DNA of 24,983 bases, from positions 1-24,983 of the IMG/VR virus record IMGVR_UViG_3300009103_000146; one strand, 5' to 3'. Below the pieces are notes generated by a model. That model made no database searches. It was not told the DNA's origin and saw nothing but the letters and a program-made list of their open reading frames with translations. Made by a program: the position numbers and the translations under genes. This document shows positions 3,001 to 24,983 of the stretch, one piece after another. Source of the DNA: a virus. Numbering within the stretch: position 1 is the first letter of the stretch; each line of letters opens with the position of its first letter.

Positions 3001-5287
3001 TCTCTCTCTTCTTCTGGGCTAGTTCAGACCAGTGTTTCTTTATCCTCTTAGCCTCCTTTGGATCAGATGTAGATTCCTTAACTCCACCATCTTCACCCAC
3101 AACCTCATTAGAAGGCTTGCCATCAGGGACAGGCGATTGCTCAACCTGCGGCTCGGATGGCTTTTCTGGGACATGGTCTTTTTCAAATTGATCCGCTATC
3201 TCCCTTGCTGAGTTTAAATCTGGAGCATCAATCGTCTGTCCATCTGGGGACGCTACAGTGTAGTAGTCTTGACCAGTGTTTTCGTCTACCTTCTTTTCGA
3301 TTGTTGCAGAAGTTGGGTTTTCTTGCTGCTCTTCAAAAGATTCAATCTCTTCAACCATCTCCCTCTTACCTTCTTCAGCAATCTCCTCTTTTCTCTTGTC
3401 CCAAGCTTCTTTAAAGACACGAACACGATCCTTTGGCTTCTTAGCGTTTAGTATCAAACTCCTGTATTCATCTGGAATGCCAACAAGCTCAAGGTTTTTT
3501 TCGTTACTCAGATATTCATGGGCAACAAGTAAATCAAATCTAGATTGGCTTGATACACCGATTACTGTTAGCGGCAGTGTAGCCCAAGCAACATCTCCAC
3601 GCTCTTTTGCCCAAGATGTCCATGTTCCCTCTGGAACGTCTGGGAACTCATCGCTTAACGCTGATGCAACCTCCTGTAATGCTATAGGCGTAGCGTCCTG
3701 TATCGCCTCCTGCATATTATTCTCTGCTGTATTTATTAGGGCGTTAATACCTATCCTCTTGGATATAGCTTTCAATGGAGATTTCTTAACATTATCTAAA
3801 AGAGAACCCAAGAATGGAGCATCACCTATGAGCAATCCAGCCGTAAGCCTTTCTATTGGAGCTTCAACTGTAGCCGAAACCATTCCACCAAGGAACGCAG
3901 ACTCACGATCCATGCCCCTATCCATCATCTCACGCATACGCATGTCTGAAGTGGATGCAAATATCATAGGGAAACCAGCGACAGGAATAAGGGCTTGCCC
4001 TGTATATGAAATATTTTTTAGGAACGGATAAAGAACCTTGTTTGTGGCAATCCAATCCCCCTTAACTGGGTCTATTCTGTCCTCTGCTAATCTTGTTAAT
4101 TTGTGCGAGAGGTCTTTTCTCTTTAAAAGCTTATTAGCCTGACTTATCAAAATATCCTGCTCCAAGTCAGTTAATGCTCTCCGACCAGGGTCATCCATTC
4201 CAGATGCAATAATGTCTGATCGAGATGAAATCTGAACCAGCTTATTCGCCATTTCCTCTACGTCAGCAAACTCTAATTCGTCAAACTCTACTGGTATTGC
4301 ATTATAATCACCCTTTGACTGAGGAAGAAGGTGTGATGTCTGCGCAAACCCAGCTAAAGATGACGCTACTCCTTTAAATCCTCTTCCAAGTGATTCTCCA
4401 GATTTTTGCAATCCACCAAAAAAGCCAGATTTCTCATCCCCTTGCTCCCTAGCATCAGCCATTACCTGTATGGCGTAAAAGAAATTATTGGCATCCTCTA
4501 GCTCAAGGTCATCAAGTATCTTCGTGACATCATCTTCAGACATATCACTAGACATTCCATCAACGCCCATTTTTGCTCCCATATAATTGAAAACATCTTG
4601 TGCCTGTTTTTGATATTTACCGAATGTTTTAGTAGCCTCCTTGAATGCAGACTTATATGCCCTATGATACATATCATCCGTCCTGCCTCGGTATCCATCT
4701 TCTTCCATCAACTGCAAAACGGTTTCGTGATACCCCATAGATTCCGTCATCCCAAGTGCTGCTGCCTTATATGCTGATGATGTGGCTATATCAACGAACT
4801 CCCTATCTCTTTTTCTCTGAGGAATAAGTTCTGTCTGAACCTTTTGGTAAAACATCTCATCCGATATTTCACTAAAATCTTCACCCCACATTTGCTTTGC
4901 GTAGGCACTTTTGAGGTATCCGTATTCCGTATTAGCCTTTCCCAACCCAATCTCAAGGTCATGTGCAAGAATATGAGTGTTGGCTATTCTGGCCCTAGCC
5001 TCCTGTGGATTACCACTCAAAGAAACTAACGACTTTAGCTTCTTTTGCTGCTCATCGGGAAGGTTCTTTCCTATGTTCGATGGATCTTCAAACATCGACT
5101 CAACCGAAAGAACATCAGACATCATCTTCTCCTTGCTTGGAGCGAATAATGGTTCGTTCATCGACTTCTTATGGTCGCTGTATCGTTGCAAAGCCGATTT
5201 TACTTTTGGCTTATCCTCGTCTTTAATGCTGCCGATGTTATTGAACAACATCTTAGCATCATTGTCTGATAAAATCTCTCCTATCAT
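1..5287 (-). CDS. Giant internal virion protein (gp16 position), partial, open at left edge
   Basis: An uninterrupted minus-strand reading frame starts at ATG 5287 and runs off base 1: at least 1762 residues with no stop. The start overlaps the upstream stop by one base (TAATG). It is the last of three consecutive genes in the positions of T7 internal virion proteins 14, 15 and 16, so it is probably packaged in the head and ejected with the DNA. Residues about 640-740 are Pro/Glu-rich. About 840-1430 are Lys/Glu/Arg-rich and probably coiled coil. About 1540-1630 carry LPEWMN, ASERN, LNVLRASAFDEF and FFAPRFAISRIQMW, which by memory match the LPD38 domain of large polyvalent phage proteins. Hydrophobic stretches lie near 430-445, 1045-1067 and 1650-1680. 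I see no lytic transglycosylase motif such as the one at the N-terminus of T7 gp16. The role is inferred from position; the C-terminus is unseen. Confidence 0.85.
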   Translation of the reverse strand, partial: MIGEILSDNDAKMLFNNIGSIKDEDKPKVKSALQRYSDHKKSMNEPLFAPSKEKMMSDVLSVESMFEDPSNIGKNLPDEQQKKLKSLVSLSGNPQEARARIANTHILAHDLEIGLGKANTEYGYLKSAYAKQMWGEDFSEISDEMFYQKVQTELIPQRKRDREFVDIATSSAYKAAALGMTESMGYHETVLQLMEEDGYRGRTDDMYHRAYKSAFKEATKTFGKYQKQAQDVFNYMGAKMGVDGMSSDMSEDDVTKILDDLELEDANNFFYAIQVMADAREQGDEKSGFFGGLQKSGESLGRGFKGVASSLAGFAQTSHLLPQSKGDYNAIPVEFDELEFADVEEMANKLVQISSRSDIIASGMDDPGRRALTDLEQDILISQANKLLKRKDLSHKLTRLAEDRIDPVKGDWIATNKVLYPFLKNISYTGQALIPVAGFPMIFASTSDMRMREMMDRGMDRESAFLGGMVSATVEAPIERLTAGLLIGDAPFLGSLLDNVKKSPLKAISKRIGINALINTAENNMQEAIQDATPIALQEVASALSDEFPDVPEGTWTSWAKERGDVAWATLPLTVIGVSSQSRFDLLVAHEYLSNEKNLELVGIPDEYRSLILNAKKPKDRVRVFKEAWDKRKEEIAEEGKREMVEEIESFEEQQENPTSATIEKKVDENTGQDYYTVASPDGQTIDAPDLNSAREIADQFEKDHVPEKPSEPQVEQSPVPDGKPSNEVVGEDGGVKESTSDPKEAKRIKKHWSELAQKKRETEEKTGVNAEEGARVKVNKDDSGNVISMETEPNVSQSNDQQALNSKKFSLKNRVMNVVRERAGLKKLDTPAKQRQNDVLESIQVKYTAQGLHDKADELADMVNSGADVSLDTVEAQMILLVEVAHTEAQIDALQDRHINAKTDSLKKEIDIKLSRQINRLDSLTLATRGIGTQLGRGMSLRRGFLDSETYKLEGLLRAAQYRKGEELTNDEKLEIAAWARDAEVARQRINKLEDELEIAREEAILSAAKETFEKESSSGVDSTKKKERKSKRRQIKDKLKQIGYRVNDITGAIGLSMEAGWLVAELAVSHIKDGASDLNGVIAAVKKDVPDISDQEILNALSGRNPGTRKKLENETTKRISDLKKMAGLQAEINDALKRIYTEKGKRSTKKQSLEIEALKVKLNDLRKQFVANIRDTRQLNRVLNELQKVEDAMESGLRRVSASKRKTVNEKIKAARKMLSDARKSQAADAKIADLQAIELGLAEEIKRESKTDPDSPGLAKKKALIKEYQKEIGTRKRLQKQIDDLLADIKTNGEENHLNAKDMVEGSQIAKLRETLKELKADKKLEEILEKTKDLQENGIKPPSKKPDSRRADIKAAMDAYNDLKATIRTNEAIEDMKEQLRTGKFKVASPVERNVLVSDDLLKARIEYKNIKRLINDSIRKKQKKTTVDKATQALLMSRTLMATADMSFLMRQGLILGSSRIVKFRGAYPTKGAAIQAFQGAFVSFFSQNRADTIDELMRSDEMQFERDKAGLFLGSLDSPLKEREEDFMGNAFDFLPEWMNFIKASERNMVIGLNVLRASAFDEFVQKNPDATHEQKVAYAKFVNYASGRGDLKLAGEWAQHASALFFAPRFAISRIQMWNMFIFESGKFAKNITRGKKDIVNRAIMRDFASTVSLGATFLALAKAGGADVGLDPADSDFGKIVFGNTRIDIWGGMLQPARIIAGFLFTDENQSRNTGNFIMYKTSPAVQIPFALSSGEDILGREVDRFDVVTRSV

Positions 5288-6888
5288 TATATCTTATCTA
5301 TTATGGACTGAAGTTCTTCGTATGAAACGCTGTTTCCGTTTACATCAGAATCGCCACCAGAGAACACCTTAAACATTGCATCAAGATTATTTCTGGAAAT
5401 CATTTCGTGAGCTTTTTTTGAAACTTCTTGTCGGGTAGGAATATCGTCTTTCTCAAATCGACTTTCAATCCATTCCTCTAATTCAGATTGAAAGGCTATC
5501 TCTGTGCTAGTCGCACTCTGATAGACTTCTGAGCGCATATCAAAACCTTTCCCAAATCCTTTTGTCTCATCTGGCTGCATTAGTTCAAATGGGCGATCTT
5601 CGGTTATATCCATCTTTGTCCAATCCCATCCGAACCATCCTTCGGTTTCCCCTACTTTTATTTCGGTAGGATCATAGTCATAAAGATTCCCGAATACGCC
5701 AGAAAGTTTCGCATGATTAAATGCCTCGAACCCTACGTTTCTGAGTTCTTTCATAGATGACGCCTTCTTAGACTCACTTGCCTCAATCGACTTCTCGTAA
5801 GTCTCATTAATGTGATTACTTGCCCTCGATGGAAGGTTTGCTTGAGAAATCGCCCAATCTAAATTAAACTCGTCTTGATCCTGCTGAAATGTGGGACTGT
5901 TAGGGTCTAGCTTTCTTGCCTTTTTAAGCAGTCTTTCGTATGCCGCATTATCGACCTCTGGCTCCCTTGAACTAGCCATATCCTTGAGGACGCTAGACAT
6001 GACCTTGTCTGGAATCTCCTTGCCATGATAGTCAATTATACCACGAATAGTCTCCTCTGCCTCTTTTAACTCCTGTGGGGTTGCCTCTTTTCTGAGTTGA
6101 ACCTCTCTTATTTTCTGCAAATTAAGCGTGTTATACTCACTTTGCTTCTCTTTTGCATTAGTAAACAGGGTATCAATCTGCTTTGGGTCTAGGTGCGATA
6201 TTCTGACATCTCCTTCGGCTTGCAGTATATCCATAGCAATTAACGGGTCTGCGTTAGTTATATTTACTATGTTTTGATACTGTGCTTCTGATCTCTTTTC
6301 AGATATAAGAGATGGGGCATCGTTGGCGAATATAATATCGTTCTCTACGGCCTTATTTACTTCGGGTTCAATATTCTCCCATTCGCCAGATTTAACAGAC
6401 TCAGATAGTAATGTGTTAAATGTATCAGTTTTCTCCTTCTCGTTCTGAACGTTGAACGCATTTATCCACTCTGTCTTATATTCGTTTATCTTGAAATCAA
6501 AGTCGTATTTACTTTCAAGTCTCGACTTATCGGACATGCGGTTATATTCATCTGAACCAAAGTCCTTGAATATTTCATCAAAGTTGGAAAGCCACTTGTT
6601 CTTATCCTTCTCGGATGCGTTAATATCTTCTAGCTTTTGCTTGTATGTGCTAAACTTGAGTCTCAAGTCGGCATCTGCCTTCCAATCATCGGACTCTACC
6701 TTCGCCTTCTTATACTCAGCAAAAAACTTCCCAGTCTTGGCAGTCTGCTGGCCTGTTTGCTGAACAGCAGCACCCATAGCCTCCATTCCTTTACCTGGAG
6801 CCATCATAGCAGCTTCACTAAGCTGAACGGCTGTAGATGCCTGTTGAACTTTTGGTAGTGCCGTAGGAGTAACTCTTAATTCTGCCAT
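5287..6888 (-). CDS. Internal virion protein, gp15 position
   Basis: This 533-residue protein is probably a component of the internal core that leaves the capsid during DNA injection, by analogy with T7 gp15 (747 aa). The sequence is hydrophilic, rich in Lys/Glu/Asp and mostly helical in appearance, with an Ala/Gln-rich N-terminus (about 1-50) and no signal peptide, membrane segment or enzyme motif that I recognise. It begins two bases after the gp14-like stop without a clear Shine-Dalgarno, so translation is probably coupled. Its stop overlaps the giant gene's start by one base. The assignment rests on gene order between a gp14-like and a giant gp16-position gene, not on a sequence signature. 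It could also be another ejection or tail-core protein. Confidence 0.7.
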   Translation of the reverse strand: MAELRVTPTALPKVQQASTAVQLSEAAMMAPGKGMEAMGAAVQQTGQQTAKTGKFFAEYKKAKVESDDWKADADLRLKFSTYKQKLEDINASEKDKNKWLSNFDEIFKDFGSDEYNRMSDKSRLESKYDFDFKINEYKTEWINAFNVQNEKEKTDTFNTLLSESVKSGEWENIEPEVNKAVENDIIFANDAPSLISEKRSEAQYQNIVNITNADPLIAMDILQAEGDVRISHLDPKQIDTLFTNAKEKQSEYNTLNLQKIREVQLRKEATPQELKEAEETIRGIIDYHGKEIPDKVMSSVLKDMASSREPEVDNAAYERLLKKARKLDPNSPTFQQDQDEFNLDWAISQANLPSRASNHINETYEKSIEASESKKASSMKELRNVGFEAFNHAKLSGVFGNLYDYDPTEIKVGETEGWFGWDWTKMDITEDRPFELMQPDETKGFGKGFDMRSEVYQSATSTEIAFQSELEEWIESRFEKDDIPTRQEVSKKAHEMISRNNLDAMFKVFSGGDSDVNGNSVSYEELQSIIDKI

Positions 6889-7398: not shown

Positions 7399-9759
7399 TT
7401 AGTTTCCTGTCACCTCAAGTTTGTAAGTTAATCGTAATACGGTCATTGGCAATGGTTGTGTCTGCCTAATAACTATATCGCCTTCTCTGGCATGTCGAGA
7501 CAAAACAGGTATATCCTTTGTCCCTGTAAATAGTGGTGGTGATGAGTCCATTGGATCACCTGTATCTCTGAATGGGAACTTGTTATATTCGATACCACCA
7601 GAACCATTTTCATAATTGGTTGCCCACTCTACGCCCAGACTCTTATGGAAGTTCACGATGATCTCCCGAATCTTCTTGATTGTGTCTACGTGAGCGCCAA
7701 TACGAGCATCGGCTTCAAGCTTCATTGGCTTAATCACTGAGTTGTATCCTAGCCCAACGTGAACCTTTTCGCCCTCTAGGGAATCTGGTAGGGTGATCTG
7801 CCCACCTGACACAGCAACATCACCCAGATAATCACCATCTGCTAGGACTTGAACTGTCTCGCCCTCTAGGTGCGATAGCCCTGTGATAACAGATGCCGCT
7901 ACACCGTCATAGGTGATACCCGCATCAACATAGAAACTGTCCTCTTTGTCGCTCAACTGGCTATTAACTGAGGATGCTGTGGAGTATCCATATACTACAG
8001 AGGGGTTAAATCTCTCAACGTATCTGACAGTGTTTCCGTCAATAGTGCGTTTAACAACCACCCAGATCTCGTCATTTAGCCCACCATAAATAGTGGCGAC
8101 CGACTCAATGGTTCCATTTGTCTCATGCTTAAACCATCCTATGACATCCTGATCTCGCTCGTAAGTCATTCCGATGAGCTTGCCCTCGCCCGTTACCGCC
8201 CAATAGATATTATTGGGTTGCTGAGTAAAGTCTGCCTGTATGATGCCACCGTCAGTAATATGCTCTGCGAAAATAGTCATATCTGGGGAAACATACTTAG
8301 CTGTAACGCTTGTCTCTGACTCAACTAGCTCACGAACCTTACGCCCATTGCGCTGAACGTATAGGACGGTATCAGATACCATGAATCCTTGAATAAAGTC
8401 AGATCCGTATGTAGACTGCCTAAATACCGCCACATTAGAAGGTGTTAGCGGCTTCTCAGCGTCACCTCCCATTGTCCATTCTGCACCAATAGTTCCGATT
8501 AGGAGCTTTTGCTGCCCTGACATCCATTGAATACTATTCTGCTCATTGGATGCTAGAGTATAGCTAAAAGCATCGCTGTCAGTAGTGCCAATTTCAAAAT
8601 CTTCAAAATCATCTGTTTTCGATCCCCATACTGTTTGCGGTCTGTTTTTTGTTCCACCGTAGCAAATTCGTTGTTCAAAAATAGCAACTGAACGAGGGTA
8701 TCCCTGTTCTGCGCTCCAAGCACCCTCATTCCAATTATCTGTGGCATTGGTGTTTTCTAGCGTGTCAATTACAGTCATATTGACCGATGTAGGGCTATTG
8801 TATCCCGTAATCTTAACAATTCCGCTACGCTCAGTATTAAGCACCTCTAAGTATGCTTGCGGCGTGGTAGCCGATTCAGGTGATCCTGCTAATGTATAGT
8901 TAATCCTAAATTGAGCTTCTACGAGCTGGTCATCCTCAAAATCAACATTTCTGTCACCGTCATTAGATGTGTATTCAACAACGTTCTCCCATGAACCTGT
9001 TGATGTATTAAGCTCTTGAACCTGAACTGTCCCTGACCAACTGCCAGTTGTCCTGAAATTCCAAGTATCAATTACGTTTAACGTAGACGATGTGCCTGAT
9101 CCGGTTAAGGCTATACTGGTCTGAGTAGCCTGTCTCGGATGGGTAATCTTCCAGTAGCTTCCTACGTGATCTGACGTAAACGTATTTGCTGATGCCGTTA
9201 GTGTCCCGCTTCCAGTAGTAACGCTTGGCGTTATTGTGGTGTTGGTGATGTTTACATCTAAAAATGCTGGTTCATCAAACACAACCTCCTCAAGAGTGAA
9301 GGTATTAGCCGATGTTCTGGATAGCTTCTGGACAGGATGATTCGGATGCGTGAAATACATTATGTCATTAACCTGGACAAACTGAACCTCAAATAGCTCT
9401 GCCTCTAGCCAAGGCGGTGTTCCTGTCAGAACATCGTCAATGGTTGTGTTGATAACAGGCGCTCCATTGCTGAAGAAGCGCATATACCCCTGTCCTAGCT
9501 CAAATACATAGCTAGTAGTGGTGGAAAAGTCATACCCGATTAGTCGGGACTTGCGTGTGCCATTATCTTTTGTGGTGGCAATATACTTCATGCCGCCTCT
9601 GCGCTCTACGCCCCCATACGGGAGGATTGTGCAGTTTGTTAGCTCACGACATGCGGAATCATACTTTTTGCTGTCAACCCTAGCATCAAGGAATGGCGAC
9701 CACTCACCAGCGTTAAATGACACTACACTTTTCTGCGATGTTCCTCTAGGTGCCGGCAT
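7399..9759 (-). CDS. Tail tubular protein B (gp12-like)
   Basis: At 786 residues it is close to T7 gp12 (794 aa), which forms the nozzle of the short tail. The N-terminus has the family signature: SFNAGEWSP at about 14-22, then an Asp/Arg/Tyr segment, then LTNCTILPYGGVERRGGM at about 37-54. The middle is rich in Thr, Ser and Val with alternating hydrophobic residues, as expected for a beta-rich propeller. It follows tail tubular A by four bases. The AGGA just before the start gives a very short Shine-Dalgarno spacing, so coupling to the upstream gene is likely. No receptor-binding or enzyme domain stands out. I am confident of the family. Confidence 0.93.
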   Translation of the reverse strand: MPAPRGTSQKSVVSFNAGEWSPFLDARVDSKKYDSACRELTNCTILPYGGVERRGGMKYIATTKDNGTRKSRLIGYDFSTTTSYVFELGQGYMRFFSNGAPVINTTIDDVLTGTPPWLEAELFEVQFVQVNDIMYFTHPNHPVQKLSRTSANTFTLEEVVFDEPAFLDVNITNTTITPSVTTGSGTLTASANTFTSDHVGSYWKITHPRQATQTSIALTGSGTSSTLNVIDTWNFRTTGSWSGTVQVQELNTSTGSWENVVEYTSNDGDRNVDFEDDQLVEAQFRINYTLAGSPESATTPQAYLEVLNTERSGIVKITGYNSPTSVNMTVIDTLENTNATDNWNEGAWSAEQGYPRSVAIFEQRICYGGTKNRPQTVWGSKTDDFEDFEIGTTDSDAFSYTLASNEQNSIQWMSGQQKLLIGTIGAEWTMGGDAEKPLTPSNVAVFRQSTYGSDFIQGFMVSDTVLYVQRNGRKVRELVESETSVTAKYVSPDMTIFAEHITDGGIIQADFTQQPNNIYWAVTGEGKLIGMTYERDQDVIGWFKHETNGTIESVATIYGGLNDEIWVVVKRTIDGNTVRYVERFNPSVVYGYSTASSVNSQLSDKEDSFYVDAGITYDGVAASVITGLSHLEGETVQVLADGDYLGDVAVSGGQITLPDSLEGEKVHVGLGYNSVIKPMKLEADARIGAHVDTIKKIREIIVNFHKSLGVEWATNYENGSGGIEYNKFPFRDTGDPMDSSPPLFTGTKDIPVLSRHAREGDIVIRQTQPLPMTVLRLTYKLEVTGN

Positions 9760-9763
9760 CCTG

Positions 9764-10402
9764 CTATTCGCTATCTATTGAACCTGCTCTTGTGCCTACC
9801 TGACGAGCAGACAACCATCGTGATTGCTCTCTAGGGTCATAAGGCGCTCGATTACGCTCGTTGCCATCAACCTTTCTAGCTCTTGGCAATACAACCTGTA
9901 AATAGCGACTCATCAGGGCTTCACCCTTGGCTTCGTCCTGCCTGATCTGTGTTGCAATCTTAGATGCTAAATAAACCGAGAACGCCTCAACGAAGAGGGT
10001 GTCGTATGTTGTTGTGTCTGTAACTTCAGCAATATACTGAATCTTAGCTGAGTCTGCATCTGAAAGTAGAACTAACCCCACGCCATCAAGGTTCTCAACC
10101 TCGTATGTGTCTGTGCGTTGGCTAATATCACGCCCATTTAAGCGTAAAAGCCGAATGAAGTCGGCTGGCAGTTTGAATTGATTGGTGTATCCGAATACTG
10201 GAGTAGTTACGAGCTTTGCTGCCTCAACCCTGCGCTTTAGGCAGTTCCATTCGTGATCCCTTGCAATCTCTCGGAATGTTATGTCATAGACAGAATTGAT
10301 GATTCTAGCGGTGGCATTGTCTTTGTCTGTGATGTCCATAATGGTTGGTTCACCAATATGGTTTAATGCCTGATTTGCTATATCTGTCTTACTTACTGCC
10401 AT
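9764..10402 (-). CDS. Tail tubular protein A (gp11-like)
   Basis: A 212-residue gatekeeper protein that joins the portal to the tail nozzle (T7 gp11 is 196 aa). The N-terminus KTDIANQALNHIGEPTI, then a helix with REIARDHEWNCLKRR, then PADFIRLLRLNG match the tail tubular A / gp4-like family. A C-terminal helical block contains YLASKIATQI and a Gln/Arg-rich end. It is the first gene after the GC-rich hairpin at 10434-10465, so its expression may depend on read-through or on a weak start within the AT-rich 10403-10430 stretch. The Shine-Dalgarno is poor: AAAGGGGG lies about 16 bases upstream of ATG. Confidence 0.92.
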   Translation of the reverse strand: MAVSKTDIANQALNHIGEPTIMDITDKDNATARIINSVYDITFREIARDHEWNCLKRRVEAAKLVTTPVFGYTNQFKLPADFIRLLRLNGRDISQRTDTYEVENLDGVGLVLLSDADSAKIQYIAEVTDTTTYDTLFVEAFSVYLASKIATQIRQDEAKGEALMSRYLQVVLPRARKVDGNERNRAPYDPREQSRWLSARQVGTRAGSIDSE

Positions 10403-10971: not shown

Positions 10972-11898
10972 TTATGAACGAAGAGTTTCAACCTTTACTA
11001 CACCCTTTTCTTCAAGACGAAGAGCACCCATACGGCAGCGTGTGCGAACCTGTGTTCCGTGGCTGTCTGTAGGGAGGATGTCGATGTTAGAACGCTTTTC
11101 ACCGTCACCGAATACAACTTGGCTCTTGTGGTAGAACAAGCAGTTGTAGATGTCAGGAGTAGTAGTTCCAGCACCAGAAGTAGTAGTTTGAGTAAGGTCT
11201 GTGTGACAGATCCACTTGAAGCCCATCCAGCTTTTACCGTTAAGTGTGCCATCAGCGATAGGAGCGATGTTGGCATAATCACGATTCTTAGCTTCGTCAA
11301 CGTCACGAACTAGCGCAGCGTCATCTTCTGGAGAAATGATCGCATAAGCGTCATCACCTAGGGATAGGTCATTCTCGTTAAAGATACGGCGAGCTTCTAC
11401 AACCTTAGCGAATGTAAGGCTAGAGTTAGCAGCAGAACCTGAAGCAACGTAGTCAACAGTAACGATCTGAGAAGAAGGAAGTGCTGTAAGAACATCGCCA
11501 TCTTCACCAGTTGTAGCGTTACCTTCAAGAGCGTCCATGATTGTGCGGTCTTTAAGGCGGTTGTATGCGTAACCGTGGTTTTCAATCAAAGCACCTTGAG
11601 GAGAGATCAATTGACCTAGTTCCTTAGAATCCCATTCATCGAGGATGTTTGCGATTTCGTGCTTTTTAGTCTTTAACCAACGATGGTAACTATCTGCGTC
11701 CTGGCGATTAGTAGAGCCATGACGAGTAGTGATTTCAGACATAGCTTGCTTTTCAAGCTGTGCGTAGCGTTTTTGATAACCTTCGATGCTGTCCATCTTA
11801 GTGGTGCCAGCGAGTTTAGAAGGCATTTGCTGGATGCGATGCAACCAGTTTTGCGAATAGTCGAGCGTATAATGCTCTGGTAGTGAATTAAAAGACAT
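10972..11898 (-). CDS. Major capsid protein
   Basis: A 308-residue head shell protein. It sits where podoviruses place the capsid: after portal, Bbp19-like and scaffold, before tail tubular A. The sequence fits a phage capsid: a polar helical N-terminus (about 1-100), SPQGALIENHGYAYNRLKD near 100-117, a central domain with a VEARRIFNENDL helix, a DDAYAIISPEDDAALV strand-helix element, and a beta-rich C-terminus ending RTRCRMGALRLEEKGVVKV. It is shorter than T7 gp10A (345 aa). It has its own promoter (12064-12091) and a structured leader of about 160 nt whose 13-base segment is complementary to the ribosome-binding site, so it is probably regulated apart from the upstream genes. The Shine-Dalgarno AAAGG lies about eight bases before ATG. 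Confidence 0.9.
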   Translation of the reverse strand: MSFNSLPEHYTLDYSQNWLHRIQQMPSKLAGTTKMDSIEGYQKRYAQLEKQAMSEITTRHGSTNRQDADSYHRWLKTKKHEIANILDEWDSKELGQLISPQGALIENHGYAYNRLKDRTIMDALEGNATTGEDGDVLTALPSSQIVTVDYVASGSAANSSLTFAKVVEARRIFNENDLSLGDDAYAIISPEDDAALVRDVDEAKNRDYANIAPIADGTLNGKSWMGFKWICHTDLTQTTTSGAGTTTPDIYNCLFYHKSQVVFGDGEKRSNIDILPTDSHGTQVRTRCRMGALRLEEKGVVKVETLRS

Positions 11899-12113: not shown

Positions 12114-12407
12114 TTATTTTTTCTTATCGAGATCATCATGCCACTTCTTAATGTCAACATCAGTGGGTTCCTCTGAGAGTCCAATCTTGAACAATTTGTT
12201 GCCAACATGAATCTCTAGGAGATGAGTCTGCGTGTCTGAGGTCTTGAATCGCCCACTAACCTCAGTCAGCTTGTATTCAATGCCCTCTAAGATATTTACC
12301 TTCTCAAGTTTCTTAGGCTCTGCCTTTTTGCCGGCAACCTTCTTCTTAGGGACTTTAACCTCTTCCTTGCCCTCTTCTAAGGGTTCTTTCTTGTATTCAA
12401 TAGCCAT
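12114..12407 (-). CDS. Small protein between scaffold and capsid
   Basis: A 97-residue protein. Residues 1-35 are extremely Lys/Glu-rich with KVPKKKVAGKK. Residues 36-97 look like a compact beta-rich domain (ILEGIEYKLTEVSGRF, then HLLEIHVGNKLFKIGL). Its ATG overlaps the scaffold stop by one base (TAATG), so it is translated with the scaffold. It ends 23 bases before the capsid promoter. I do not recognise the family; the place suggests a head-assembly accessory or a nucleic-acid-contacting protein. A weak AT hairpin (TAATAA/TTATTA) follows the stop. Confidence 0.75.
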   Translation of the reverse strand: MAIEYKKEPLEEGKEEVKVPKKKVAGKKAEPKKLEKVNILEGIEYKLTEVSGRFKTSDTQTHLLEIHVGNKLFKIGLSEEPTDVDIKKWHDDLDKKK

Positions 12408-13309
12408 TATCGTAGTGAGTTAAGATACATTTCGTTGTAGCGAGACTGCTGCTCGTAGAATTTCTTACCAGCAACGTTGTCACCCTTGGCGTATGCCTCG
12501 GCAGACTTGCGACCTGCATCAATCGCCATCTCTTGGAAATTGTTGCTAGATGCGTTACTGATGTTACCTGCGCTGTTGTTATTAGAGATTACATCGCTGC
12601 TAATGAACGACTTAATCTTAGCTAGAGCCTTCACGCCCTCTGCTGTCATACCAATACGCTCAATCTCGCTCTGGGGGATACCCAAGGCGTTTGCAGACGA
12701 AATAGCGTCCTTAACCATCTTGTCGGCATCTACCCCAAATTCTGACTTTAGGAGGTTACGCTGTTCTTCTAGCTGTGCATTAGCCTGTTCCTGCATCTGC
12801 CCCTCTAGTCCCTCAAATGAACCTACATAGGACTCAAATAACTCCTTGGCGAGTTCTGGAGATGCACCATGCTTATGAAGGATTTCTGAGAACCCATCCA
12901 CCTGAGATTGATCCCAGTATTCGTCTGGAACGCCCTCCGGTTTTTCATAACCGTATTCAGATGCCTCTTTAGGAGCGCCATTGAGTTCACGCATTCTGCG
13001 GTCAAATTCTTCCTTAACGCTCTCAGGAGCATCGTCAGCAGGGCGCTCAAATCCCTTTTGACCTGCCATATACTGAAGATTGGCTACCCCATCAAGAAAT
13101 GCCTTATTCGGGTTTTCTGCCCCTTGATACTTCTTGAATAGCCCCTCTACGGACTTATTGCTGTCCTCAAACTGGATTCCTGGGTTAATACCGTCCTCCC
13201 CATAAAAGCTAAATGGAGCAGGTTCGGCTGCCGGCGTTGACGTTGATGGATCGGCTACTGGTGGTTCCCCTCCTGTATCCCCTCCGCTTAATAATGATTC
13301 ATCACTCAT
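12407..13309 (-). CDS. Capsid scaffolding protein
   Basis: A 300-residue protein, close to T7 gp9 (307 aa). It is acidic with a disordered Ser/Pro/Glu-rich N-terminus (1-45), repeated helical segments with many Glu and Gln (about 130-240), a Ser/Asn-rich linker (about 235-255), and a helical C-terminus that ends with basic residues. This composition, and its place directly before the capsid region, are typical of podoviral scaffolds, which guide procapsid assembly and then leave. It starts two bases after the Bbp19-like stop without a clear Shine-Dalgarno, so coupling is likely. It overlaps the 97-aa gene by one base. Confidence 0.85.
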   Translation of the reverse strand: MSDESLLSGGDTGGEPPVADPSTSTPAAEPAPFSFYGEDGINPGIQFEDSNKSVEGLFKKYQGAENPNKAFLDGVANLQYMAGQKGFERPADDAPESVKEEFDRRMRELNGAPKEASEYGYEKPEGVPDEYWDQSQVDGFSEILHKHGASPELAKELFESYVGSFEGLEGQMQEQANAQLEEQRNLLKSEFGVDADKMVKDAISSANALGIPQSEIERIGMTAEGVKALAKIKSFISSDVISNNNSAGNISNASSNNFQEMAIDAGRKSAEAYAKGDNVAGKKFYEQQSRYNEMYLNSLR

Positions 13310-13623: not shown

Positions 13624-15363
13624 TTATAATTGATCGCCTATACTATCCTGTAGTTCCTGTGGTGCTGAACCCATCTGTCCAGCAGATTTACTCATAGATT
13701 CCATAGCTGCCATAGCCTGTTCCTGCTGTGCTTGCTCTGCCATAGCTTCCTCGATTTCTTGAATCTCTTCATCGGTATTCAAAAAATCACTAGCTACGCC
13801 CAAGTTATCAGCGAGTTTCGGATAGCCACGTTTAGAGTTGAACAGCATACGCCACGCTTGGACAGCACCTTCTGGGTCAATCTGGGCAGTCTGAATGATA
13901 ACCTGCACAAACTGTAAGAAATCTTGGTTCTGACGAGCCTTGAGCAGCATCGCTATCTTAGATGTGAACTCAACCTTTGGAGTATCTAGGACAACCGAAC
14001 CATCCTGCTTTTGACGGAAAACATCTTCTGGTGGCTCTGGAAATAGCCCCTTGCGGAAACATATACCAAATACACGATTAAGGAATGGTTTAGAAAACTC
14101 AGTGTTCAAACGTGTGAATGTCGGGTGAAAACGCCCAACCTTCTCTGAAAGCATTTCAGCTACCTCAAAAGCAGTTTTTTCTCTGCCACGCTCAGGCATG
14201 CTAGTGAGAAGCTGGAACAAATCTGTGAAATACGCCTGTTCAATCTGTCTGCGCCTGAACTCGCTACGCTCCATGCCCTCTCTAGGGTCACCTGCTGTAG
14301 CCCACTCCTGTGGAAGTGCCTGTGGCATACCCTCATCAAAGATAGTAACGCCACCAGCTCGTAAATCCACATCGCCTTCTAGGTTAGATGGGTATAGCAA
14401 GCGAGGGTTTACCTTAACCTCTACGAGTGTATCTAAATTCTCTTCAATGAAGTTTAATTGGCGAATACCACTTAAAACTTCTACTGAGGGACAATACCCA
14501 TATACTTCATCGCCCCATTCTGCCCAACGGCTTACCATTGTAGGCATTTCCTCATATCCGCTCTCACGAAGCATAACGCCACCCTCAATCATTACGTGAC
14601 AGGTGCGGATAGGCATATTTAGTGGATCAATCTTGTCTGGATCACGCTCACGACCAGGACGAGGCTCAATAGCTATGACAACCTGTATTTTATCGTCCTT
14701 ACCGTCTCTATCCTTCTGGATGGCACGTTCACGCACCTTCTGAGGGATATTTCCAGTATTTCCACCCATACCCTTTTCGCCGTATTTCTGTAGAATCTGG
14801 CGAGGGGTATATTCCTTCAAAATCATTATCTTATCGACAACACCCTTATCATTTTCAGCAATGACGTAGGTTCCAATGTCTTCAGACTTACAGTAGAGAA
14901 TATCATCATCATCTTCCTCTACATGGAAATGGGCTGTGCCGAAACCGCCTCGCATGACAAAGAATGAGTGAATTTCCATCTCAAAGTTTGTCTCAGCGAG
15001 AACTTCTAGCATTATCTCACCAGTTTTCTTATACCATTCCTGAGCCGCAGGAGAAGCATCCTTATTGGGTGCTTTGTTCGCAAACCAGCGACCCCCAATA
15101 AGGAAATCCATGGAGCCAGCAGCAAGCGTAGTATTCGCATGGATAGCAGTAGTATCATATATACGATCAGTATATCCATCTATGCTCTTGGTCTTTTTTG
15201 TGTTAATCTCGGACTTCCGAGGCATCACGTAGTCAGAAATACGTTGCCACAGCTCTGAGCGCCATTGCTCTTGGTCTGCTCGCATTGCTCGCCATTCCTC
15301 GATGACACGTGCGGCTTTACCGTCATCCATGCCAACTACGTCTGCCTTTTCGGTGTCTGCCAC
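13624..15363 (-). CDS. Head-tail connector portal protein (gp8-like)
   Basis: A 579-residue subunit of the dodecameric ring through which DNA enters and leaves the head (T7 gp8 is 536 aa). The N-terminal helical part has RVIEEWRAMRADQEQWRSEL (about 20-39), then DYVMPRK. Family landmarks follow: IYDTTAIHANTTLAAGSMDF, the PSVEVLSGIRQLNFIEENL segment, and REKTAFEVAEMLSEKVG (about 390-406) followed by a helical crown. The C-terminal 60 residues are Gln/Glu/Ala/Met-rich. It starts with GTG at 15363, overlapping the upstream stop as TAGTG. An ATG lies 11 codons in, but the overlap and the AGGA two bases upstream favour GTG. Confidence 0.92.
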   Translation of the reverse strand: MADTEKADVVGMDDGKAARVIEEWRAMRADQEQWRSELWQRISDYVMPRKSEINTKKTKSIDGYTDRIYDTTAIHANTTLAAGSMDFLIGGRWFANKAPNKDASPAAQEWYKKTGEIMLEVLAETNFEMEIHSFFVMRGGFGTAHFHVEEDDDDILYCKSEDIGTYVIAENDKGVVDKIMILKEYTPRQILQKYGEKGMGGNTGNIPQKVRERAIQKDRDGKDDKIQVVIAIEPRPGRERDPDKIDPLNMPIRTCHVMIEGGVMLRESGYEEMPTMVSRWAEWGDEVYGYCPSVEVLSGIRQLNFIEENLDTLVEVKVNPRLLYPSNLEGDVDLRAGGVTIFDEGMPQALPQEWATAGDPREGMERSEFRRRQIEQAYFTDLFQLLTSMPERGREKTAFEVAEMLSEKVGRFHPTFTRLNTEFSKPFLNRVFGICFRKGLFPEPPEDVFRQKQDGSVVLDTPKVEFTSKIAMLLKARQNQDFLQFVQVIIQTAQIDPEGAVQAWRMLFNSKRGYPKLADNLGVASDFLNTDEEIQEIEEAMAEQAQQEQAMAAMESMSKSAGQMGSAPQELQDSIGDQL

Positions 15364-15572: not shown

Positions 15573-15930
15573 AAATTTTGCTAATACGCTGTTTAAGTTT
15601 TTCTAATTCGTAAAATTTAACGTTACCCTTATGCTCAAATGTGCAGTAAGGCAAGTAAAAAGGTAAATTATCTAAGGCTTTCTTCATATCTCCTGCCAAA
15701 AAGAACACTAGCCATGCATTTTGCTTATCATCTGGATAAGTTATTCTAATATCAAGCAAATCATCATATGGTGCATCTTTGTTCACTGGTCTGCCCATAG
15801 CAAAGTAGTCTGGAGTGGACTGGACGTAGCCAAATAGCAGATGCATGTCCAAGGTTCGGTAAAATCCCTCTTCTCCATAGAAATCTACCCCTAATTGGGC
15901 GGGAGACTTATCTTGGTATAGTAAGCTCAC
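15556..15930 (-). CDS. Hypothetical phage protein between terminase and portal
   Basis: A 124-residue protein of mixed alpha/beta appearance, rich in Tyr, Phe and Leu (LDMHLLFGYVQSTPDYFAMG, about 27-46; AWLVFFLAGDMKKAL, about 72-86). It has no signal peptide and no convincing membrane helix, although the FFLAG stretch is hydrophobic. Its start overlaps the large terminase stop by four bases (ATGA) and its end overlaps the next gene by 17 bases. I do not recognise the family. Its fixed place between packaging motor and portal suggests a packaging or head-completion accessory, but that is inference only. Confidence 0.8.
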   Translation of the reverse strand: MSLLYQDKSPAQLGVDFYGEEGFYRTLDMHLLFGYVQSTPDYFAMGRPVNKDAPYDDLLDIRITYPDDKQNAWLVFFLAGDMKKALDNLPFYLPYCTFEHKGNVKFYELEKLKQRISKIYGFTS

Positions 15931-17306
15931 CGAATTACTCTCACACCCGAATTTTTACCATGAAAACTATCTCTACCACCCATTCGGACACGAACTCCTG
16001 ATCCTCTGCGCCCTCTTTTCTGCTGTCCAGCGTTTCCGATAGCCCTTCCTAGCTCAATAGCCCATGCAGCATACGCAAATGCCGTTCCCCAGTGAGATGC
16101 CCAGTCGTGGACTGGTTGATTCGTATAATATTGCTTCTTATCCACCTTTCGGCTACTCCAGAACTCCAATGCCCTGATTCCCTCAGTACATTCGTCCTGA
16201 TTGAAGAACATTCTAGGAAATAGCTTAATTGCGGTGTTAATTGTGTCCCATTGATCCTTCGGGCGCTTCAAACACTCCACATTTGCAAACCCAGCGTCTT
16301 TAAGAATGGGCAACCATACAGTTTCACCGTCATGCGGCAAAAAATGCACCCCATAGCTATATCCTCGCTCACTCGCCAGTTGTTTTAGCAAATCCACCCA
16401 CTTATGAGGGGTATTTAGCTGTGCATGACCTGATATTGCTTGTAAAAGCTTGATTTTGTCACCCACAAGCTGCCATATCCAGCATTTCGTGTTCATCGGC
16501 AAGCCTATATCAAATGTAGTGTATACGGGCTGCCCTGCGAAGTGCATAATATCTGAAGAGATTCGTGACTGCTTCCTAGCCTGTTCCACTTCTTCTAAGA
16601 ATATTGTGCCTGGACTCGCTATATCGAAGTCACATTCATACTCTTGCAGATACTGATTACGAGTTATATTTGGGTCTTCCTGAATGTCAAGAAGTTCCTC
16701 CTCACTCAAAATTCCACTCTTAGAGGCTGGCAAATATAAACAATACCAATTATCACTAGAATCAGCATTCTTATATACGTCATAGAACGCATTTTTGCCC
16801 TTTGGAGTCCCAATGAAGGTAGCCCAACCCCGATAATCCGATAAACAGGGGCGAATTACCGTAGCCCATGCCGCAGGGTTAATATCTGCATATTCGTCCA
16901 ATACAACCCCATCAAAATACAATCCACGCATACGCTCGTAGTTATCACCAGAATATAGCCTGATTTCTGCGTATGTAGCCTTTCCATCCTTATCCTTGAT
17001 AGGAACTGTGCATTTCAAATCACTCTCGTTGACCCTAGCACCCTTAATCTGCCCCAAAAACTCTTTGATATACCCCCAGGCAACATCTTTAGCCTGATCT
17101 CGGGTAGGGGCTATATAAGCATACCTCAGAGGGGCGGTTTTCATATTATCCCGCTTATGAGTAAGGGCTTTGATAGTAATATCTTGAATACACCCAAAAG
17201 TCTTACCGAATCTTCGGTGGATCACCAAACAGGCGTATCTCTCTTTCCTGCTAAGATAACTCTTGAGAGCCTCTCTGGGCTTAATGACTATCTTGGTGTC
17301 ACTCAT
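15927..17306 (-). CDS. Terminase large subunit
   Basis: A 459-residue ATP-driven packaging motor and nuclease that cuts and pumps genome DNA through the portal. The ATPase domain shows a terminase-type Walker A (HRRFGKT, 30-36), IAPTRDQAKD (65-74), Walker B VVLDE (134-138) and motif III FIGTPKGKN (164-172). The RNase H-like nuclease follows: Asp in TFDIGL (about 264-269), PHDGE (about 324), and DWASHWG near 402 giving the last metal ligand. The C-terminal 40 residues are Arg/Gly-rich and probably bind DNA. It is shorter than T7 gp19 (586 aa) and nearer the PBSX/Terminase_6 size. Its ATG shares ATGAGTGA with the upstream 56-aa gene. Confidence 0.95.
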   Translation of the reverse strand: MSDTKIVIKPREALKSYLSRKERYACLVIHRRFGKTFGCIQDITIKALTHKRDNMKTAPLRYAYIAPTRDQAKDVAWGYIKEFLGQIKGARVNESDLKCTVPIKDKDGKATYAEIRLYSGDNYERMRGLYFDGVVLDEYADINPAAWATVIRPCLSDYRGWATFIGTPKGKNAFYDVYKNADSSDNWYCLYLPASKSGILSEEELLDIQEDPNITRNQYLQEYECDFDIASPGTIFLEEVEQARKQSRISSDIMHFAGQPVYTTFDIGLPMNTKCWIWQLVGDKIKLLQAISGHAQLNTPHKWVDLLKQLASERGYSYGVHFLPHDGETVWLPILKDAGFANVECLKRPKDQWDTINTAIKLFPRMFFNQDECTEGIRALEFWSSRKVDKKQYYTNQPVHDWASHWGTAFAYAAWAIELGRAIGNAGQQKRGRRGSGVRVRMGGRDSFHGKNSGVRVIR

Positions 17307-23166: not shown

Positions 23167-23832
23167 CTATTCCCTCCCTTCTCCTGTTGTCGCATTCTGC
23201 TGCTGGGGTGGGGCTAGGCTAATCAGATAATCCCTAACAGCTTCCATTTCTGGGTTTCTAAAGAAAGACTCAGCGTAAATTCTGTGATCTTTGTAATGCC
23301 TGTAGTTGTGTCCGTTAAGCTCAAGATGCTCCTTGGCTCCAGCTTCAGTGAAGAACACAGCTACAGTTTTCCATATTAACTTATACCCGAACTCTTCAGC
23401 ACCTTCAGTATTAGCGGGAACCTGTTCGTAATCCCCGCTTTCCATGTTAATCCATTCGGTATCGTCTGCATAATCTCTTACAATCGGACTAATCTTTTCC
23501 TGAACCTGAACACAGAACATTGGCAAGTGTGTGCATCGGTTGTCTTGGGTTCTTAGGTTATGCCCGATCTCTTTTAGCAGCTCCCCCTGCTCACTGATTG
23601 CGCTCATTGCTGGGCTTGGCTTGGCGGTCTTGAGGGATTTGTGCTTCAATATCTCACCTGCGAGATCATAAGCCCCCATTAAATCCTTATGCTTCCTTAG
23701 TAGACCAGCCAGAGAATCCCTGTCATGTATATCAATCACACCCTCCCGATTTGCGGATTCACCCTCAATAAGCTTCAACAGCTTACGATCCCCCTTGTTC
23801 TGGGCGTGTTGTCTTATTGCTTCTATGTTCAT
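23167..23832 (-). CDS. 221-residue hypothetical phage protein
   Basis: The largest protein of the right-hand operon. The N-terminal half is helical (IRQHAQNKGDRKLLKLIEGE, about 5-24; LAGLLRKHKDLMGAYDLAGE). The C-terminal half (about 100-210) has LPMFCVQVQEKISPIV and WKTVAVFFTEAGAKEHLELN, then HNYRHYKDHRIYAESFFRNP. By memory, that block (a strand, FFTEAGA, then an HN-x-x-x-Y turn and YAES-x-RN-E) recurs at the C-terminus of small phage proteins of unknown role. Its start shares ATGA with the upstream stop. It has no catalytic signature that I can defend. Confidence 0.75.
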   Translation of the reverse strand: MNIEAIRQHAQNKGDRKLLKLIEGESANREGVIDIHDRDSLAGLLRKHKDLMGAYDLAGEILKHKSLKTAKPSPAMSAISEQGELLKEIGHNLRTQDNRCTHLPMFCVQVQEKISPIVRDYADDTEWINMESGDYEQVPANTEGAEEFGYKLIWKTVAVFFTEAGAKEHLELNGHNYRHYKDHRIYAESFFRNPEMEAVRDYLISLAPPQQQNATTGEGRE

Positions 23833-24194
23833 GACTCACCTTCCTGTATAAGCCCAAGCTCTTCTAGGCGGTTGCAAATTAGGGTTAGCCTTTCGCTCTC
23901 AATAAACACCCCATCCTCTATGTATTTAGCAACATCCTCCCGCTTCATCGGGCGCACAAACTTTTCGTTTTCAAAGAATGGCTTAGGGTTGTCTCTCGTT
24001 ATCGTTGTGCCTCCTTCGTGATGATTCAGCCATATAACCTCTGCCTTAATAGGCTTCTTTTCCTCAACTGGCTTTAGTAGGTAGCCATCCTTTAAGTCTT
24101 TAAGGCGCTCTCCTGCTAGCTGCGCCCCATGATACGCCTTGCATGGAACTAGCTCAAAGCTTTTTCCGTTTATTTCTATTATCTCGTTTTTCAT
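23829..24194 (-). CDS. 121-residue hypothetical protein
   Basis: The start was placed at ATG 24194 because AAGGAG lies five bases before it. An in-frame ATG at 24233 would add 13 residues, but its AAGGAG is only one base away. The protein begins MKNEIIEINGKSFELVPCKA, a beta hairpin followed by a compact helix, then ends with a helical EDVAKYIEDGVFIESERLTL segment. No family is recognised. It overlaps the 46-aa frame by 41 bases at its start and the next gene by four bases at its end. Confidence 0.72.
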   Translation of the reverse strand: MKNEIIEINGKSFELVPCKAYHGAQLAGERLKDLKDGYLLKPVEEKKPIKAEVIWLNHHEGGTTITRDNPKPFFENEKFVRPMKREDVAKYIEDGVFIESERLTLICNRLEELGLIQEGES

Positions 24195-24294
24195 TGCTCT
24201 CCTTTTTTTCTGGCTTAGAGAATATACGGTCATGCTCCTTTCGGAACTTATCTAGGTCTAATCCTAGTCTGACTCTATCTCCTTTTCCTGCCAT
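24154..24294 (-). CDS. 46-residue basic micro-protein, first of the right operon
   Basis: Reads MAGKGDRVRLGLDLDKFRKE, then a Lys/Glu/Arg/Asn-rich end (KKESNEKRDNRNKRKKL). It lies directly behind leader repeat C and 15 bases downstream of the predicted transcription start, but its own Shine-Dalgarno is poor (GGGGAC too far away). Its last 41 bases run inside the 121-aa gene in another frame and contain that gene's ribosome site. It may be a real leader peptide or only an open frame. Confidence 0.45.
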   Translation of the reverse strand: MAGKGDRVRLGLDLDKFRKEHDRIFSKPEKKESNEKRDNRNKRKKL

Positions 24295-24295
24295 C

Positions 24296-24309
24296 GGTTA
24301 ATTGGTTAA
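24296..24309 (-). repeat. Leader repeat copy C
   Basis: On the minus strand TTAACCAATTAACC, a 14-base match to the core of the 18647 and 18913 repeats, two bases before ATG 24294. The motif thus marks the start of both divergently placed small-gene operons and one internal gene. Confidence 0.6.
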
Positions 24310-24315
24310 GTCCCC

Positions 24316-24350
24316 ATGAGATCACCTGTATAACAAGGTGTCAACACCTT
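24316..24350 (-). promoter_or_regulatory. Promoter of the right operon with overlapping palindrome
   Basis: On the minus strand a perfect TTGACA (24344-24339), a 17-base spacer and TCTCAT (24321-24316, four of six -10 bases). A palindrome AAGGTGT-N2-ACACCTT (24335-24350, 7-bp arms) sits on the -35 box, where a bound repressor would block RNA polymerase. Transcription would start near 24309. Confidence 0.55.
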
Positions 24351-24423
24351 TATCAGAAAAACACAGGGGATACATTCTTATCCTTACTAGATTCGTAAAG
24401 GCTTCTGAAGGTTGTCGCAAACT

Positions 24424-24450
24424 CCCTATAAGAGAGAGTTCCCCTATAGA
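24424..24450 (-). promoter_or_regulatory. Tandem TATAGGG boxes, possible phage-polymerase promoters
   Basis: On the minus strand TATAGGG occurs twice, 18 bases apart (24448-24442 and 24430-24424), each preceded by a CT-rich stretch. The second reads TATAGGGAG, the same as bases -4 to +5 of the T7 RNA polymerase promoter. The upstream recognition part does not match T7. The second copy also forms a hairpin (24420-24440, 8-bp arms), so RNA structure is an alternative explanation. Confidence 0.35.
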
Positions 24451-24901
24451 GTAGTTTGAGACTGATACATTAGTATCCCCACTGAGTTCATTAAGGAACG
24501 TCAGGCACTAACCCATCTCACACAGTATAGCAACTCCCTTAGCATTAAATGAGGTTCTTATGAGATTAGCGGTCTACCAGTTACACTGAGGGATAAGGCT
24601 CCCCCTGGCCATTGTATAGCGTTCTGGTTTGATATGAAAATAAGTGAGACGCTTCGTATTCAGCTACCCCATAGCCCCTGGCTGATCTTCGCTCAGAAAC
24701 CAAGTGTTTCATTGGGCTCTGAGCGGGGCTACCTTGTATCACTCACAACGTCTCTAGTGATCCTACGCTACTCAAAAGAGTTTCGATCCTACGATCTCGT
24801 CAGGCGCATTATTTTCACATCACTGTTAGCCTTTTTTCTATCCGATAGACCTAGAGGGTTAGCTCTTAGGCAGGGCATTAGGTTGTTATCCGAGAGTATC
24901 C
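24440..24901 (-). ncRNA. Candidate large structured non-coding RNA
   Basis: There is no convincing ORF, but there are nested complementary segments. Outer helix: 24809-24822 with 24630-24643, 14 bp, with one pair that is G-U only on the minus strand. Inside it: 24749-24754 with 24646-24651 (6 bp). Inside that: 24725-24731 with 24672-24678 (7 bp) stacked on 24718-24724 with 24691-24697 (7 bp) and 24712-24715 with 24700-24703 (4 bp). Flanking hairpins: 24850-24870, 24838-24848, 24770-24781, 24482-24504 and 24464-24477. The wobble pairs favour transcription leftward. The 5' end may lie at a TATAGG box at 24905-24900. Identity unknown; the ends are guesses. Confidence 0.5.
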
Positions 24902-24923
24902 TATATCTCACCCTTCCTTGGGG

Positions 24924-24961
24924 CAAAAAGAAAGCCCCTAGGTTGCAGCTAGAGGCTTTCT
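24924..24961 (-). terminator. Rho-independent terminator for minus-strand transcription from the right
   Basis: Bases 24929-24941 pair with 24949-24961 (13 bp, one G-U on the minus strand), followed on the minus strand by TTTTTG. It would end a leftward transcript that enters from beyond the right edge and so isolates the 24300-24920 block. Confidence 0.8.
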
Positions 24962-24983
24962 AAAAAGGATAGCACATGGAATC

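Follow-up and report, generated by a model that had tools for sequence, protein, structure and literature searches.

The right-hand end of one viral contig raises the question of what a phage encodes in a long stretch that holds no recognisable gene. The contig (the window; the whole stretch of DNA that was analysed, 24,983 bases) is linear and its genes are podovirus-like. The largest gap in its codon-usage gene call, 24234-24983, lies at the right end, upstream of the leftward (late) genes (Table 1). Two large late genes on the minus strand, at 2-5287 (at least 1762 aa) and 5287-6888 (533 aa), had no PHROGs match, and the 533-aa gene had no Pfam match either; by position, they may encode internal virion proteins. 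The first gene downstream of the gap was searched against PHROGs and Pfam without a match, and its relative in L002, from the related phage G001, lies on the opposite strand relative to the gap.

A first-pass annotation of the letters had read 24440-24901 as a large, undescribed, leftward phage RNA, on the strength of a block with no credible gene, nested inverted repeats and a terminator just to the right. The absence of a gene was confirmed. Only two open reading frames longer than 50 aa occur in 24234-24983, one at 24634-24963 (plus strand, 109 aa) and one at 24581-24742 (minus strand, 53 aa). Both were without a Pfam match, the 109-aa frame was without a PHROGs match, and no counterpart of either was found in the homologous region of a second related phage, G005. 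A conserved protein frame in a homologue, which the annotation had proposed to look for, was likewise not found in G005.

Two relatives were identified by protein comparison: G001 (L002; TerL 85%) and G005 (L010/L015/L023; TerL 57%, head protein 65%). The homologous region of G005 has the same place and strand relative to TerL as in the window, upstream of the TerS-TerL genes, and its last ~700 bases are collinear with the window minus strand. The sequence alignment scored 392 compared to 210 +/- 28 for shuffles (z about 6.5), and 692 compared to 511 +/- 29 with softer gaps. The alignment starts at the terminator-like hairpin, passes through GGATAC(T/C)CTCGATAACAACC and then reaches the AAGAACC motif listed in Table 1. 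The hairpin reads leftward and corresponds to the terminator that the annotation had placed to the right of the block; the consensus terminator scanner omits it, few T following the stem. The 5' end of the RNA is predicted near 24901 and its 3' end somewhere within 24410 to 24234, giving a length of about 490-670 nt.

Table 1. Features of the proposed RNA and neighbouring genes in the window, with counterparts in related phages
Feature	Position	Strand	Counterpart	Basis or remark
Proposed large structured RNA, outer limits	24234..24901	-	G005 L015:3290-4010	Gene-free; collinear with G005
Terminator-like hairpin just upstream of RNA	24929..24961	-	G005 L015:3254-3285, upstream of RNA; L002 gap about 2130-2168	Inverted repeat I4; alignments
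5' conserved motif GGATACTCTCGGATAACAACC	24881..24901	-	G005 form GGATACCCTCGATAACAACC at L015:3347-3366	
Two small 5' hairpins, 24850-24870 and 24837-24849	24837..24870	-	G005 L015:3377-3396 and 3397-3405, differing in sequence	Structural alignment of 5' piece, z 2.7
14-bp base helix of variable middle domain, 5' arm	24809..24822	-	G005 L015:3429-3447, longer, arms partly similar	Inverted repeat
14-bp base helix, 3' arm	24630..24643	-	G005 L015:3540-3556, longer, arms partly similar	Inverted repeat
Variable middle domain (nested stack of the annotation)	24644..24808	-		Interior unconserved
Hairpin with 14-nt arms	24690-24703/24712-24725			Inside the 14-bp repeat
Conserved 3' domain, 222 nt	24410..24631	-		55 pairs in 6 helices
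Helix 3	24565-24571 with 24506-24512			Encloses the most conserved motif
Most conserved motif AAGAACC..TTAA..GCTAAGGGAG.TG..ATACTG	24523..24559	-		Sequence comparison with G005
Terminal long hairpin, helix 6	24414..24462	-		21 pairs, 10 changed on both sides
First downstream gene	23829..24233	-		134 aa
TerL	15927-17306	Read leftward		Podovirus-like gene
Head-tail adaptor	13624-15363	Read leftward		
Major head protein	10972-11898	Read leftward		
Tail proteins	within 7399-10402	Read leftward		

A covariance model (R2) was built from the window alone, using the 222 positions of the 3' domain. With filters off, the model matched G005 at L015:3784-4002 with 39.1 bits, the match spanning all 222 positions; the E-values, which are rough owing to a short calibration, were 1.9e-9 in 2.5 kb and 5.6e-8 in 75 kb, and the next match in the relative reached 4.8 bits. 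The G005 match was missed with the Infernal default filters. In the resulting alignment, 105 of the 106 base-pair cells of the 3' domain were paired, and 22 of its 55 pairs were changed on both sides, compared to 10.9 +/- 2.4 in shuffles (0/500 as good). When the partner was shifted by one to three columns, only 1-4 doubly changed pairs were left. Paired columns were 45% identical and unpaired columns 58%. The check for covariation suggested by the annotation thus found compensatory base changes, in the one homologue on which it was run. The alignment was fitted to the window structure, which favours the pair count, while the E-value and a structure-only test are independent of that count; the comparative case as a whole rests on two sequences.

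In the structure-only test, the 3' domains of both phages were compared with the sequence ignored, using a structure-aware aligner written for this analysis. The alignment stood at z 4.5 with 0/100 shuffles as good, and for the 3' core 0/160 unrelated real stretches were as good. When 165-nt cores from both phages were folded independently, the same terminal hairpin appeared with closely matching bulges and most letters different. In the 5' piece, both hairpins of the window recur at matching positions in G005, whereas the interior of the middle domain aligned structurally with G005 no better than shuffles (z about 1). The non-Watson-Crick pairs of the 3' domain comprise 13 G-U and no A-C, which indicates a minus-strand RNA. 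The antisense 3' domain also aligned above shuffles, more weakly than the sense (z 2.8 vs 4.5). A MAFFT alignment of the two RNAs was rejected, as it put the terminal hairpin out of register and gave weak RNAalifold results (3' domain z -2.0, no structure in the 5' part); the structure-aware aligner and the model built from the window alone took its place. The misaligned pair had also served to train model R1; this model, and the E-values of an nhmmer profile built from the two sequences, were circular and were not counted as evidence.

Folding energy was also calculated for single sequences. The minus strand gave z -1.3 for 24440-24901 (6/60 shuffles as good) and z -2.6 for 24234-24917 (1/20 as good); in 24634-24830, the plus strand folded no worse than the minus one, at z -2.6 against -2.2. 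For the G005 3' domain the values were z -1.1 (sense) and -2.0 (antisense). Tiles of 222 nt taken elsewhere in the window as controls had a mean z of -0.6 (sd 1.1, minimum -3.6); because they reach similar values, energy alone is insufficient for the case.

The comparisons with G005 make a structured RNA on the minus strand very probable. The region is real and RNA-like, and the nested inverted repeats are not decisive evidence for it. The 14-bp repeat that the annotation had described is present, its imperfect pair becomes G-U only on the minus strand as claimed, and further stems, which may correspond to those quoted at 6, 7, 7 and 4 bp, nest inside it in the minus-strand fold; that interior, however, is unconserved in G005. 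The span given as 24440-24901 also needs to be shifted, as the best-supported domain lies partly outside it and mainly to the left of the nested stack. The proposal of a large undescribed leftward RNA is upheld by compensatory changes in the homologue, the absence of a conserved frame and the lack of an Rfam match, whereas the nested stack and isolation by a terminator would not have carried it.

The preferred reading is that the minus strand of about 24234-24901 probably encodes a large structured non-coding RNA that is free-standing, at the head of the leftward late genes. Its main rival is a lengthy 5' leader that acts in cis on the late operon, such as an antitermination or translation-control element past the upstream terminator. 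In both phages the RNA lies on the same strand as the late genes and directly upstream of them, with a terminator-like hairpin just before it; a scan between the RNA and the next gene found no terminator-like site, as a leader would predict. However, the first downstream gene is not shared (134 aa in the window vs 87 aa in G005, L015:4129-4392, with no match between them), and this speaks against the control of any single gene. A length of 490-670 nt, with an internal tRNA in G005, is moreover far above that of the antitermination leaders known to us. A leader is therefore considered unlikely, though it deserves to be taken seriously, and action in trans is judged the somewhat better supported mode for this RNA.

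The locus could also act as DNA, in the form of a replication origin, a packaging site or a recombination site with cruciform-forming repeats; inverted repeats are indeed present, in a gap that, in G001 and G005, appears to separate divergent transcription arms. Selection for DNA pairing would not yield the G-U bias among the variant pairs, however, and alignment is better on the sense strand than on the antisense, so that a DNA element appears very improbable. Hardly more credit can be given to a region with no function, in which a decayed tRNA array or decayed genes have left chance inverted repeats. Folding energies alone are close to chance and a real tRNA array occupies that place in G005, but the covariance-model E-value and the compensatory changes speak against decay, and a decayed tRNA array was rejected since a search for tRNA genes or traces in the window found none.

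A free-standing RNA would be transcribed with the late operon or just before it and would then be cut free from the downstream message by processing. In G005, maturation of the tRNA would itself cut the RNA. The freed RNA would act as a structural RNA in its own right during infection, as GOLLD and ROOL may do.

GOLLD forms a closed homo-14-mer cage and ROOL an octameric one, and we know of no function established for either cage. The annotation had likened the block to these RNAs without a specific match, and this agrees with the searches. The window had no match to any family of Rfam 15 at gathering score (150 bits for GOLLD, RF02032; 99.1 bits for ROOL, RF03087). The GOLLD model found nothing in the window region at E up to 10 or in G005 at E up to 5, the ROOL model found nothing in the window or G005, and the ROOL sequence gave no alignment to the window RNA. 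A positive control, which covers the ROOL model only, detected ROOL on L. salivarius pMP118 (L087) at 130.4 bits with the same library.

The setting shows closer parallels. GOLLD is a large phage RNA found near tRNA islands, with a conserved 3' region, a less conserved 5' part and a linker that sometimes holds tRNAs (PMC12286853, PMC6582537). The window and G005 RNAs are similarly large and phage-borne, with a conserved 3' region and a less conserved part. Twelve tRNA genes lie within about 1.7 kb in G005 (L015:1935-3635), while none is found in the window, whose contig ends just beyond. The G005 RNA follows an 11-tRNA array, and a tRNA-Met (CAT) sits within its variable middle, recalling the GOLLD linker; this tRNA comes just after the 3' arm of the helix corresponding to the 14-bp repeat, and the counterpart of the middle domain is followed by tRNA-Met and a second stem-loop region. 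ROOL, at about 520-660 nt, is a phage or plasmid RNA that is often near tRNAs (PMC12286853, PMC5643018); it is alike in size and phage/tRNA setting and differs in giving no covariance-model match. In phage ICP1, an abundant ~800-nt non-coding transcript, reported as neither GOLLD nor ROOL, arises from an ORF-less gap beside a phage gene cluster (PMC7567579), a likeness to the window RNA in size and location. Sequence similarity to the ICP1 RNA was not significant (z 2.3 with the window and -0.9 with G005), and no model match was found in the ICP1 gap.

The candidate RNA is best regarded as a new family of large structured phage RNAs, and a rare one; it resembles GOLLD and ROOL in setting, belongs to neither, and is probably similar in kind to them. 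Self-assembly in the manner of GOLLD and ROOL is conceivable but doubtful. A shade less likely again is a further self-assembling class founded by the window and G005 RNAs, in which a conserved 3' domain would serve assembly and a variable domain could hold a tRNA. Giant phage RNAs are a standing puzzle, and shared principles could be sought independently in an unrelated RNA from the same setting; if such an RNA again holds a tRNA in its variable part, large RNAs linked to tRNA supply may have arisen more than once in phages. The case also illustrates how a large phage RNA that Rfam and blastn both miss can still gain support from just one distant homologue.

Only two members were found, in the window and in G005. 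When the region was used as a blastn query, none of 50,697 phage records matched, and with the G005 RNA as query only its tRNA appeared among the matches listed. Three DNA-pattern scans of IMG/VR viral contigs for the conserved motifs yielded no new member; the matches were judged coding by eye in two scans and lay inside open frames in the third. The first scan missed G005 despite an exact match, which was ascribed to a storage boundary (L072 is cut at base 3878 of the G005 contig, inside the motif). Models R1-R3, run over the loci of relatives (up to 854 kb) with scores of 11.7 bits or less treated as noise, recovered no further member, and a 16-bit match in L078 was rejected as it falls inside a 298-aa ORF. 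No member was found in the reference phages Microcystis Mvi-Yong1342-1 and Rhodoferax P26218, and a genome-collection scan for related terminases returned distant relatives only. G001, although closer by protein than G005, shows at a similar position (L002:1800-2490) a non-coding gap with no homology recognisable by sequence, structural or model comparison. Absence from G001 and the other relatives implies that the RNA is rare or fast-evolving, and replaceable.

Several further features were recorded in these phages. The 12 tRNA genes of G005 are unusual for a 31-kb contig, and two of its inter-tRNA gaps, at about 2411-2510 and 2690-2780, resemble tRNAs by eye; in the first, a tRNA-Sec match of 23.8 bits fell below threshold. 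A CACCGT-type short tandem repeat occupies the G001 contig end (L002:1-190). A different non-coding region of 540-935 nt, not homologous to the window RNA, occurs in a group of related phages (L033:13549-14311; also L031, L035, L046 and L051) and holds tRNA-Trp, a tRNA-like sequence whose anticodon is unreadable, or both. Other relatives carry a tRNA-Met (CAT) within a few kb on the downstream side of TerL, among small frames and with no obvious intergenic gap (L055:10710-10784, L054:4693-4767 and L053:10446-10520). An IMG/VR contig with a large tail-like gene (L021) carries an ARAGORN-predicted permuted tmRNA (tag AKNIATAANNIVAFSRQAVAV) at 12187-12508, within a tRNA cluster.
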